Below, in pieces: positions 8,689-12,476 of a DNA stretch of 64,000 nucleotides (its first letter is position 1; each line of letters begins with the position of its first letter). Source of the DNA: Candidatus Terasakiella magnetica (lineage in GTDB: Bacteria; Pseudomonadota; Alphaproteobacteria; Rhodospirillales; Terasakiellaceae). The translations under genes and the position numbers were made by a program. The stretch covers positions 1 to 64,000 of the forward strand of contig NZ_FLYE01000005.1 of NCBI RefSeq assembly GCF_900093605.1, read 5' to 3'. Under the pieces are notes generated by a model. The model was given only the letters and a program-made list of their open reading frames with translations. It had not been told where the DNA came from and made no database searches.

Positions 8689-8737
8689 TTGACAATTCGC
8701 AATGAACATTAGATTAGCCTAAAATAAAATCTCCTAA
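8689..8737 (+). promoter_or_regulatory. Crp/FNR-type box and class II promoter of the octaheme cytochrome operon
   Basis: TTGAC-AATT-CGCAA (8689-8702) is a two-half-site Crp/FNR-family box of the FNR/NnrR type. Exactly 22 bases lie between it and the -10 hexamer TAAAAT (8725-8730), so the box centre would be at -41.5 of a start near 8737, the class II FNR geometry. The same box with the same spacing occurs at 11075. A weaker sigma-70 reading (TTGACA-N17-GATTAG from 8689) overlaps it. Confidence 0.6.
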
Positions 8738-8793: not shown

Positions 8794-10377
8794 ATGTCGA
8801 TCAAACATCTACTTGGGCGTGGATTGATCGCATGTATGTTGATGGTGTCACCCGCCCTTGCGGCGATGGATAAAACCTCAACTGCAGACCACACCCAATT
8901 CAAACAGCTCCAGCAGGAGTTTAAAACCGGACCGGACGTGACAGCGGCTTGCTTAGAATGTCACACCGAAGCATCCAAACAACTTGAAAAGACCACGCAT
9001 TGGACATGGCAGTTTGACCATATGAACGGTCAAAAGCTCGGCAAACGTGAAGTGGTCAATAACTTCTGCGGCACTGTGGCTTCAAACGAGGCACGTTGCA
9101 CCAGCTGCCATATTGGCTATGGCTGGAAAGATTTACGAAAAGAACATCCTGCGGGCAATAATGTGGACTGCCTTGTCTGTCATGACACCACAGGGAAATA
9201 CAAAAAATACCCAACCGCTGCGGGCCATCCAAATTACGAGCCTAAAGCATGGCCGCCAAAATCTAAAAAAATCCGCCCTGTTGTGGATTTAAAAATGGTC
9301 GCTCAAAAAGTCGGCCCAACCTCGCGTGCAAACTGCGGGGCCTGTCATTTTTATGGCGGTGGCGGCGATGGGGTAAAACATGGTGATCTAGATAGCTCCC
9401 TTGCCAACCCCAACAAAGAACTTGATGTCCATATGGCAAAAGAGGGCGCGAATTTCAGCTGTGCCACCTGCCATAACCCTAAAGGCCATGATGTACCGGG
9501 CTCACGCTTTGACATGCAGGCCAAAGATACCAAAGGCATTGATGTTGCCAGTGCTGAATATAAAGATCATGCCTCTTGTGAATCATGTCACAGCATGAAA
9601 CCGCACAAGAAAACAGCCAAGCTGAATGATCATACCGATAAAGTCGCCTGTCAGACCTGTCATATCCCTGAATTTGCCCGCGGCGGTGTTGCCACCAAAA
9701 TGTGGTGGGACTGGTCCCAAGCTGGCAAAATGAAAAATGGTAAACCTTTTGCCATCAAAGATGATAAAGGCCACATGATTTACCATAGTAAAAAAGGTGA
9801 CTTCAAACTGGCTGAAAATGTCGTGCCTGAATATGAATGGTTTGACGGCAAAATGCGCTACACCCTGCGCAGTGACAAGCTTGATGACAGTAAAAAAGTC
9901 GTACCGATTAACACGTTTGGGGGGTCTTACAATGATCCGAACGCACGGATCTGGCCTTTTAAAGTCATGCGTGGCAAACAGCCTTATGACACTGTGAATA
10001 AAACATTCCTTGTCAGCCATGTATTTGGCAAAGACAAAACGGCCTATTGGAAAAACTTCGACTGGCAAAAAGCTTTAACAGCCGGGTCTAAATATGTCGG
10101 TGAGCCTTACTCTGGCAAATTTGATTTTATCGAAACAACTTACCACTGGCCCCAAACCCATATGGTGGCCCCAAGTGATAAGGCACTGGGCTGTGATTCC
10201 TGCCACACCAAAGGCGGACGTTTGGAAAAACTCACAGGTTTCTATATGCCGGGTCGCGATAAATCCGACACGTTGGATACCTTGGGCTTTGCTTTAATCG
10301 GGCTGACCGGAGCAGGCGTGGGCGTACATGCGCTTTTGCGTCTTTTGGGTCGTCGTAAAAATAACGGGGAGGGCTAA
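8794..10377 (+). CDS. Octaheme c-type cytochrome, tetrathionate reductase family (OTR)
   Basis: 527 residues. A signal peptide ends at about residue 23 (VSPALA). Eight CxxCH heme sites are visible: near residues 53, 102, 126, 181, 223, 262, 286 and one near 470. The order and spacing fit the OTR family, whose Shewanella member reduces tetrathionate, nitrite and hydroxylamine in vitro. A C-terminal hydrophobic helix plus RRK anchor (last 35 residues) would tie the periplasmic domain to the membrane; this is not part of the soluble Shewanella form. It is followed after 3 bases by a cytochrome b that can deliver quinol electrons. Physiological substrate is uncertain: tetrathionate, nitrite or another N/S oxide. 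The Shine-Dalgarno AGGAGGAGG is unusually strong. Confidence 0.92.
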   Translation: MSIKHLLGRGLIACMLMVSPALAAMDKTSTADHTQFKQLQQEFKTGPDVTAACLECHTEASKQLEKTTHWTWQFDHMNGQKLGKREVVNNFCGTVASNEARCTSCHIGYGWKDLRKEHPAGNNVDCLVCHDTTGKYKKYPTAAGHPNYEPKAWPPKSKKIRPVVDLKMVAQKVGPTSRANCGACHFYGGGGDGVKHGDLDSSLANPNKELDVHMAKEGANFSCATCHNPKGHDVPGSRFDMQAKDTKGIDVASAEYKDHASCESCHSMKPHKKTAKLNDHTDKVACQTCHIPEFARGGVATKMWWDWSQAGKMKNGKPFAIKDDKGHMIYHSKKGDFKLAENVVPEYEWFDGKMRYTLRSDKLDDSKKVVPINTFGGSYNDPNARIWPFKVMRGKQPYDTVNKTFLVSHVFGKDKTAYWKNFDWQKALTAGSKYVGEPYSGKFDFIETTYHWPQTHMVAPSDKALGCDSCHTKGGRLEKLTGFYMPGRDKSDTLDTLGFALIGLTGAGVGVHALLRLLGRRKNNGEG

Positions 10378-10380
10378 GTC

Positions 10381-10992
10381 ATGAAACGCGTCCTTATGTA
10401 TAAACGTTTTGAACGTTTCTGGCACTGGGCACAGGCCGTACTGGTCTTGATGCTCGCCTTCACGGGTTTTAACATTCACGGCACCTTTGATGTGGTGAGC
10501 TATGAGCAAGCTTCAGAAATGCATGGCATTTTATTATGGTTGCTCTTGGGCTTATGGGCCTTTGCCATTTTCTGGCATTTCACCACAGGGGAATGGAAAA
10601 ACTATATTCCCACAACGGAAAAACTGGGCGATGTGATCCGTTATTACAGCTCCGGCATCTTTAAAGGGGAAGAACATCCTTATGAGAAAACACCGGAAAA
10701 GAAACTCAATCCCTTGCAACGCATCGCTTATTTGAAATTAAAACTGATCATCAATCCGGGCTTGATAATCTCCGGCTTGCTCTATCTGTTTTATAACGAA
10801 TGGCCTGAAGCTGTGGCGGCGATCTTGAGCTTGGAAATCGTTGCCTTGATCCACACAGCCTTTGCTTTCTTCATGGTTACCTTTGTGATTGTCCATGTGT
10901 ATCTGATCACCACCGGTCATACGGTTGGCGCGCACTTAAAATCCATGGTCACAGGCTATGAAGATATTCCAGACCACAAAGGCGCTGAATAA
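10381..10992 (+). CDS. Membrane cytochrome b (b561/hydrogenase-type)
   Basis: 203 residues, four hydrophobic helices. Candidate heme ligands lie in the first helix (RFWHWAQA), the second (EMHGILLWLL and FWHFTTGEW) and the fourth (VIVHVYLITTGHT), as in di-heme cytochrome b subunits of Ni-Fe hydrogenase, formate dehydrogenase and thiosulfate reductase. With the upstream octaheme cytochrome it makes a two-gene quinol-to-periplasm electron path without any molybdenum or iron-sulfur subunit. The start is three bases after the upstream stop, with GGGGAGGG as ribosome site inside the end of that gene. Confidence 0.9.
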   Translation: MKRVLMYKRFERFWHWAQAVLVLMLAFTGFNIHGTFDVVSYEQASEMHGILLWLLLGLWAFAIFWHFTTGEWKNYIPTTEKLGDVIRYYSSGIFKGEEHPYEKTPEKKLNPLQRIAYLKLKLIINPGLIISGLLYLFYNEWPEAVAAILSLEIVALIHTAFAFFMVTFVIVHVYLITTGHTVGAHLKSMVTGYEDIPDHKGAE

Positions 10993-11020
10993 CACCTCTT
11001 CCATTCAGTGCTACCTTGAT

Positions 11021-11058
11021 ACGCTCTCTTTTTTCAAACAAAAGAGAGCGTTTTTTTT
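11021..11058 (+). terminator. Intrinsic terminator of the octaheme cytochrome operon
   Basis: An 11-bp perfect stem ACGCTCTCTTT (11021-11031) / AAAGAGAGCGT (11041-11051) with a 9-base loop, then a run of eight T. It closes the two-gene operon and separates it from the small-RNA promoter that follows 17 bases later. Confidence 0.9.
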
Positions 11059-11074
11059 AATTAATTTGCACCAA

Positions 11075-11123
11075 TTGATAATTCGCAATGTGCAAAGACC
11101 AAGTTTCGCACATTATCCCCTCA
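11075..11123 (+). promoter_or_regulatory. Crp/FNR-type box and class II promoter of the predicted small RNA
   Basis: TTGAT-AATT-CGCAA (11075-11088), with 22 bases to the -10 hexamer CATTAT (11111-11116), gives a predicted start at about 11123. The surrounding 18 bases (11073-11090) match those upstream of the octaheme operon (8687-8704) at 17 of 18 positions, and the box-to--10 spacing is identical. It lies between two terminators, so it must serve a short transcript. Confidence 0.6.
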
Positions 11124-11206
11124 CCCGCTGAAAAGGTACCCTCCCTTCAGCATTTGATCTTAAAACCCTCTTTCACCTCCCCAGACGTGAAAGAGGGTCT
11201 TTTTTT
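11123..11206 (+). ncRNA. Predicted FNR-type-controlled small RNA with two anti-Shine-Dalgarno hairpin loops
   Basis: From the predicted start to the T run this is about 84 nt with no ATG. Hairpin 1 is GCTGAA/TTCAGC (11127-11132 with 11146-11151), and its 13-base loop ends in CCCTCCC. Hairpin 2 is a perfect 12-bp stem ACCCTCTTTCAC/GTGAAAGAGGGT (11165-11176 with 11187-11198), loop CTCCCCAGAC, then about seven T (11200-11206), making it the terminator. C-rich loops complementary to ribosome-binding sites are typical of several alphaproteobacterial trans-acting small RNAs. Its neighbours are the octaheme cytochrome operon upstream and pgk downstream. Expression and targets are inference. Confidence 0.6.
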
Positions 11207-11276: not shown

Positions 11277-12476
11277 ATGTCTCAATTCAAAACACTGAGT
11301 GATTATGATGTTGCCGGAAAACGCGTTCTGTTGCGCGCAGATTTAAACGTCCCCATGAAAGACGGCGTCATCACAGACACCACACGAATTGATCGCACTT
11401 TGCCCACCATTCAGGAATTGGTGGAAAAAGGTGCCCGCGTTGTTCTCATCACCCATTATGGTCGCCCAAAAGGCCAGCGTGTGGCTGAAATGTCGGTTCA
11501 ACCCATTGCAGGCGCGGTGGCTGAAAAACTGGGTAAAGACGTTAAATTTGCCTCAAACTGTATTGGGGACGAAGCTGAAAGCACAGTTGCCAGCCTTGGT
11601 GATGGTGATGTGTGTATTTTGGAAAACTTGCGTTACTACAAAGAAGAAACCGATAACGATCAAGGCTTTGCTGAAAAACTGGCAAAACTTGGTGACATTT
11701 ATGTCAATGACGCCTTTTCTTGTGCGCACCGTGCCCATGCCTCTACCGAAGCCCTTGCACGTTTGTTGCCTTCTGCGGCAGGTCGTTTAATGCAGGCTGA
11801 ACTTGAAGCCCTTTCTGGCGCACTTGAAGCCCCAGAGCGCCCTGTGGCTGCTCTTGTTGGTGGGGCAAAAGTCTCAACTAAACTTGATGTTCTCAATAAC
11901 CTCACAGCCAAAGTCGACATGTTGATCATTGGCGGAGGCATGGCAAATACTTTCCTTAATGCCCAAGGCATCAATATTGGCAACTCTTTATGTGAACATG
12001 ACTTAGCTGATACGGCAAAAGAAATCATTGCCTCTGCTGCAAAAAATGGCTGCGATATCATGCTGCCTGTTGATGGTGTAGTCGCCAAGGAATTTGCCGC
12101 AAATGCAGAAAACCGCACTGTCAATCTTGCTGATGGTGTTGAGGGCGATGAAATGATCTTGGATGTGGGTCCGGCTTCTGTAGCAGATGTGAAAGAGCGT
12201 CTTGCCAAATGTAAGACAATCGTTTGGAACGGCCCCATGGGTGCCTTTGAAATCGCGCCTTTTGATAATGGTACAAACGGTGCGGCCCAAGCAGCAGGTG
12301 AGCTGACCAAAGCGGGCAAGCTTGTTTCTGTTGCAGGTGGGGGTGATACGGTTGCCGCCCTTGAACATGCAGGCGCAAAAGCTGATTTCACCTATATTTC
12401 AACAGCAGGCGGGGCCTTCCTTGAATGGTTGGAAGGTAAAGAGCTGCCCGGCGTTGAAGTGCTACGCGTCAAATAA
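11277..12476 (+). CDS. pgk: Phosphoglycerate kinase
   Basis: 399 residues, the usual bacterial length. It interconverts 1,3-bisphosphoglycerate and 3-phosphoglycerate with ADP/ATP. Visible signatures are [14 protein letters not shown] (the N-terminal PGK signature, about residues 17-30), [36 protein letters not shown] and the C-terminal nucleotide-binding [17 protein letters not shown] precedes the ATG at a good distance. TATAGT (11230-11235) could be its -10. The only GAPDH gene in the window sits in the arsenate operon; no central-glycolysis gap accompanies pgk. Confidence 0.97.

Follow-up and report, generated by a model that had tools for sequence, protein, structure and literature searches.

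The 64,000-nt stretch of Terasakiella DNA analysed here (the window, from genome G000) carries a small RNA gene of about 84 nt upstream of pgk, whose structure, conserved loop and operator are established by sequence comparison among six species of the genus. The whole proposal, to which we give a probability of roughly two in three, is that this free-standing sRNA is activated by an FNR/FixK-type regulator and that its loop blocks GGAGGG ribosome-binding sites (RBSs) in trans. The predicted sRNA would then probably act as a low-oxygen brake on selected proteins.

The RNA unit and its attachment to pgk

The initial annotation had read from the letters of the window a regulatory box, a 22-nt gap, the hexamer CATTAT, a start near 11,123, two hairpins and a terminator, and direct reading finds all of them in place on the forward strand. 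The terminator of the octaheme cytochrome (otr) operon occupies about 11,020–11,058, its T run ending at 11,058. It is followed by the operator TTGATAATTCGCAA (11,075–11,088), the 22-nt gap (11,089–11,110), the −10 hexamer CATTAT (11,111–11,116) and the small RNA (11,123–11,206, with a predicted 5′ end). Hairpin 1 (11,127–11,151) pairs GCTGAA (11,127–11,132) with TTCAGC (11,146–11,151) around the loop AAGGTACCCTCCC, in which ACCCTCC lies at 11,138–11,144. The intrinsic terminator (11,165–11,206) consists of a 12-bp stem (11,165–11,176 with 11,187–11,198) closed by the loop CTCCCCAGAC and followed by a C and seven T. The 84 nt had also been described as lacking a start codon; ATG is absent, but TTG and GTG occur. 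A leader-peptide reading found no support: the G000 RNA has no ATG, and no reading frame appeared to persist in the relatives.

The segment 11,123–11,206 folds at −29.6 kcal/mol (z = −6.3), which none of 200 shuffles equalled, and the six sequences folded independently give z values of −3.9 to −7.6 in agreement with the alignment structure. In the six-sequence alignment 98.1% of the cells pair, eight of the 18 pairs are changed on both sides and none of 500 shuffles reaches the paired percentage or the covariation score, the covariation figures leaning towards the given structure since the covariance-model alignments are fitted to it. Slid structures pair in at most 53% of the cells. Covariance-model alignments were used because a MAFFT alignment of five rows misplaced the loop. 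The covariation lies mostly in the terminator stem, where 7 of 12 pairs are changed on both sides; five of the six pairs of the hairpin 1 stem are invariant, and the sixth turns from A-U into U-A in G004.

A DNA search returned one strong relative, G003, with 80% identity over 171 bases upstream of pgk. By a covariance-model search, which the initial annotation had suggested, together with reading of the regions upstream of pgk, the unit with its box and hairpin 1 was recovered from each of the six Terasakiella species searched, always upstream of pgk: at C5:11118 in G000, C26:26100 in G001, C1:39759 (minus strand) in G002, C1:3024415 in G003, C24:262361 in G004 and C149:31631 in G005. The score of the G004 copy, 41.5 bits, is within reach of ordinary terminators, and this copy was accepted because it lies between a cobC-like gene and pgk, has the same type of box (TTGCGAAATCGCAA) and contains GCGCTGAT...ACCCTCC...ATCAGCGC.

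The neighbours were judged from their translations. The gene order is cobC-like phosphatase, box, RNA and pgk in G002, G004 and G005, with further genes before pgk in G004, while the otr operon sits between the cobC-like phosphatase and the sRNA in G000 and G001. Other genes lie upstream of the sRNA in G003, where otr is missing and the RNA persists; the sRNA therefore follows pgk and not otr. The framing of the locus as an otr-pgk neighbourhood is not supported, the RNA staying with pgk where otr is absent or elsewhere.

The syntenic anchor pgk (11,277–12,476, forward strand) has its own promoter sequence just upstream (TATGTATAGTGC), which is kept as TATGTATA(G/T)TGC in all six species. Depending on the species, the sRNA lies between about 70 nt and 1.5 kb from pgk. 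Because pgk has this promoter sequence and genes intervene in G001 and G004, the sRNA is no pgk leader. More generally, it is very improbable that the element is a mere terminator or leader of a neighbour, either a read-through otr terminator or a pgk attenuator, with no independent RNA. The element does end in a terminator between otr and pgk, and in G001 the stretch from otr to the box showed no otr terminator; however, the otr operon of the window has its own terminator, pgk has its own promoter sequence throughout, the unit persists where otr is missing and as far as 1.5 kb from pgk, and conservation extends to hairpin 1 and its loop, though a terminator needs neither.

The operator and its candidate regulators

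With the implied start at 11,123, the centre of the box falls at −41.5, the class II position of FNR-family activators. On sequence evidence, an FNR operator at this activating position is conserved before the sRNA in six species, and boxes like it, similarly spaced, precede otr in five. The six-species comparison backs the annotated reading of a free-standing sRNA gene with a class II Crp/FNR-family box and an anti-Shine-Dalgarno (anti-SD) loop.

In the six genomes together, the asymmetric box pattern TTGANAANTCGCAA was counted 17 times and its reversed control once; a few of the 17 are intragenic and look like chance. When 17 boxed promoters were compared, the −10 match was best with a gap of 22 nt, 3.18 of 6 against 1.97 ± 0.36 at other gaps, the matches themselves being modest (3–4 of 6). 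In each of the six sRNA promoters the −10 element has A as its second base and T as its sixth. In G002, G004 and G005 a longer leader separates the box from hairpin 1, so that the start is less certain there.

The sites at which the box recurs are the sRNA, a 33-aa ORF after a Crp/Fnr-family regulator gene (seen in five species) and otr. In the window the operator TTGACAATTCGCAA (8,689–8,702, forward strand) stands 22 nt from TAAAAT, before otr itself (8,794–10,377, forward strand; TIGR04315, E 3e-190), which encodes an octaheme cytochrome of the tetrathionate-reductase family and is the co-regulated neighbour of the sRNA. All five otr operons found have an FNR-type box, the others being TTGATAAATCGCAA, TTGAGATTTATCAA, TTGCGAATTATCAA and TTGATGTATATCAA; the box in G004 (C39:48471) lies directly before otr. 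The box TTGATGTATATCAA of G005 has the form TTGATN4ATCAA, the canonical FNR consensus. Its presence before one otr operon identifies the operator type by comparison, and on this comparison the sRNA box is an FNR/FixK-type operator. An activator of this type at −41.5 would switch the sRNA on, most likely at low oxygen, and the otr operon would be turned on together with it by the same type of activator.

The regulator gene before the boxed 33-aa ORF has Fnr as its best NCBIfam match, below the cut-off, and the recognition helix ETTSR. Its product has two N-terminal cysteines and one central one (CESCGIRHLALF ... ELCQIP). E. coli FNR uses four cysteines. Since one N-terminal Cys of FNR is missing from the Fnr-like regulator, an Fe-S oxygen sensor is not assured. 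Six Crp/Fnr proteins of the G000 genome exceed the Pfam cut-off, and the one at C1:244222, with C-x2-C-x9-C and a central C, could be the sensor, judging from its cysteines. A separate locus (G000:C44:161523-162436; L177, L178) holds tandem Crp/Fnr-family regulator genes, both with the recognition helix KPESLSRAL. The 33-aa ORF encodes a single-span product (MDNIAMFGVGGVVTTVVVSAGLLIFLIRKINGN and variants; L068 1580-1681, also L067, L070, L072 and L077; five species), follows directly after the Fnr-like regulator gene with the box and spacing seen at the sRNA, and has no match in NCBIfam. In G001 (C50:245, L081) the same box precedes a gene that is DsrE-like by eye, followed by a rhodanese-like gene, a hint that the regulon may be connected with sulfur.

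The box could also answer a Crp/FNR-family sensor of another signal, such as NO, redox state or sulfur compounds, with the rest of the mechanism unchanged. The missing cysteine fits this, as do the boxes before a tetrathionate-reductase family gene and before the DsrE-like protein gene; the canonical TTGATN4ATCAA before otr in G005, the ETTSR helix and Fnr as the best family match speak against it, and we hold another signal to be unlikely, though deserving of some weight.

The conserved loop, its candidate targets and a look-alike

The motif (A/U)CCCUCC is found in the hairpin 1 loop of all six species, as ACCCUCC in five and AUCCCUCC in G001. The annotation had counted two anti-SD loops. That of hairpin 1 is conserved, but the terminator loop drifts across the six species (CTCCCCAGAC, TTCCCCAGAC, CCCAGTAT, CCCGTCTG, ATCCCT and TTTTTTAG), which rules out a second conserved anti-SD loop. 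In the sequences compared, constraint is visible on one anti-SD loop only, that of hairpin 1.

We infer from sequence the transcription of the gene, the identity and signal of its regulator, Hfq dependence and the anti-SD action. The RNA would end in the intrinsic terminator, whose U tail suits Hfq, and Hfq would stabilise it. The loop (A/U)CCCUCC would be single-stranded and pair with GGAGGG-type RBSs in trans, and this pairing would block translation of a set of mRNAs.

Among 51 genes of the window, loop 1 of G000 pairs best with the Shine-Dalgarno sequence (SD) GGGGAGGGC of the b-type cytochrome of the otr operon (10,381–10,992, forward strand), at −16.9 kcal/mol; in the comparison with background genes this site gave −16.6, and 2% of the background is as strong. 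The gene is a speculative target. The otr site AGGAGGAGG, which had been put forward as a target, proved mid-field, 39% of the background being at least as strong. The cytochrome b SD of G001 (AAGGAGGGAU) reaches −17.0 (0 of 82 background genes as strong) and matches the altered loop of that species, AUCCCUCCUU, perfectly over 10 bp, and the otr SD of G002 reaches −16.3 (0 of 68). With each species' own loop, an RBS of the otr operon is therefore the strongest or nearly so in G000, G001 and G002, in a post hoc test with two sites tried per species, 51–92 background genes and starts set by a crude rule. The operon sites are weak in G004 and G005, where 20–36% of the background is as strong, and the G001 and G002 sites pair equally well or better with the loops of other species. 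The otr-cytochrome b operon is accordingly to be treated as a candidate target in three species, a lead and not a finding.

A genus-wide conserved pairing site was not found in the six genomes, either by the pairing predictions or by a scan for GGAGGGT before ATG (GGAGGGT-N2-8-ATG), which gave 7–30 sites per genome. The sole gene matched in three species was lexA, recognised by eye, and it was not taken as a target. In these three of the six species (L216, L266 and L296) the gene has a GGAGGGTG-type RBS complementary to the sRNA loop.

The pairing and the shared box bear on an incoherent feed-forward brake, in which one FNR-type regulator activates the sRNA as well as the otr-cytochrome b operon, whose output the sRNA then caps by pairing with one of its RBSs, much as PcrZ caps FnrL-activated photosynthesis genes in Rhodobacter (PMC8139620). 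Such a brake seems to us rather unlikely. The box stands at both promoters, and the SD of cytochrome b in G000 and G001 or of otr in G002 pairs best or nearly best; but the pairing is weak in G004 and G005, G003 keeps the RNA without otr, strong SDs pair with any CCUCC loop, and the sites of G001 and G002 suit the loops of other species as well or better.

An sRNA look-alike lies at the 3′ end of the otr operon (10,975–11,059, forward strand; fold z −6.5), with 46.6 bits under model R2, just above the 42 bits of chance terminators. Its hairpin GGCGCTGAAT/ATTCAGTGCT spans the stop codon, with the loop AACACCUCUUCC, and is followed by the terminator, a two-hairpin layout like that of the sRNA. 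The GCTGAA of the look-alike is part of the coding end and occurs also in G001, where the rest is missing. It may be a decayed duplicate, a 3′-end-derived sRNA or a coincidence. A self-contained circuit, in which one FNR-type regulator drives the otr-cytochrome b operon and the adjacent sRNA, the latter capping the operon through pairing at its RBS, with the sister module over the stop codon as a second sRNA or a decoy, is a quite doubtful extension.

The sRNA might instead be a sponge or titrator of another sRNA or of a protein rather than an mRNA-pairing RNA, as CrfA titrates the aR8 RNAs of Caulobacter (PMC12559287). C-rich motifs of this class join RNA-RNA pairing of that kind (PMC12559287), and the otr 3′ end offers a look-alike with the loop CACCUCUUCC; the polarity of the conserved loop, however, is anti-SD and not SD-like, resembling SisA-D rather than CrfA, which leaves the sponge reading with little probability. 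The trans-acting, RBS-blocking RNA is the reading we prefer.

Comparison with known small RNAs

Rfam searches at gathering and permissive thresholds gave nothing convincing, and in the whole window no family attained its cut-off. Outside Terasakiella, no convincing copy turned up in 317 genomes of the order (DNA search and model R1), in 40 relatives (R2) or in 80 pgk neighbourhoods of named genomes; the inspected outside matches of 20–42 bits were mostly ordinary G+C-rich terminators, which also shows that the E-values of R2 are overoptimistic for scores under about 45 bits. Wherever more than 40 genomes were covered, the filters were strict enough to let the G005 copy escape, so that a diverged homologue may exist elsewhere. 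On present evidence from these searches, the sRNA appears genus-specific to Terasakiella. No open-access paper was found that names both Terasakiella and a small RNA. A same-order relative carries a two-hairpin element with C-rich loops and a terminator, GCCTACA-CTCCCTGA-TGTATAGGC (L045, G087:C161:9674-9757), which has no FNR box and is possibly another anti-SD sRNA.

In working, the Terasakiella sRNA would be like FnrS and PcrZ (PMC8139620). The FnrS of enterobacteria is an FNR-activated sRNA that represses functions dispensable without oxygen (PMC8139620), but it belongs to a different bacterial class and differs in neighbourhood and seed, and the Terasakiella sRNA has no Rfam match. For PcrZ of Rhodobacter sphaeroides, control by FnrL may be indirect (PMC8139620), whereas the box at −41.5 suggests direct control of the Terasakiella sRNA. 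The NarS of E. coli, an FNR-regulon RNA from an mRNA 3′ end (PMC8139620), is a parallel for the look-alike of the otr 3′ end, while the Terasakiella sRNA itself has its own promoter.

With aR8, MmgR and SisA-D the RNA shares an alphaproteobacterial host, an anti-SD motif and the Rho-independent terminator, the last of these a feature of the aR8/MmgR group that the Terasakiella sRNA has. The seed is UACCCUCCCU against UUUCCUCCCU in aR8 (8 of 10 positions); the aR8 10-mer itself is absent, with UACCCUCCCU in G000 and G003, AUCCCUCCUU in G001 and other variants elsewhere. In aR8 the motif stands unpaired downstream of a weak hairpin, and in most species the copy neighbours an N-formylglutamate amidohydrolase gene (PMC12559287), whereas the Terasakiella motif is a hairpin loop by pgk. 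The linkage to that amidohydrolase gene was not seen, the neighbours being the cobC-like phosphatase, otr or other genes, and pgk. C-rich anti-SD motifs in hairpin loops are known from SmelA075-type RNAs (PMC3927594). The ar14 (RF02344)/SmelA075 type has three CCUCCUCCC loops, in contrast to the two hairpins and one conserved CCCUCC loop found here, and the ar14 score of 20.5 bits falls short of the gathering cut-off, 58.8. From these sequence comparisons, the Terasakiella sRNA is best called a new, previously uncatalogued sRNA family of a known kind, with a predicted FnrS/PcrZ-like working and a seed like those of aR8 and the SmelA075 type.

Few lineages are known to have oxygen-controlled sRNAs, and direct FNR-type control in alphaproteobacteria is poorly documented. 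For the sRNA described here the operator is clear and the seed defined, and a genus that can be cultured supplies six natural variants, T. pusilla DSM 6293 among them, so that its control, seed and targets are open to direct test. Furthermore, it ties an RNA to the expression of a multiheme cytochrome, although otr would not be its only reason to exist.
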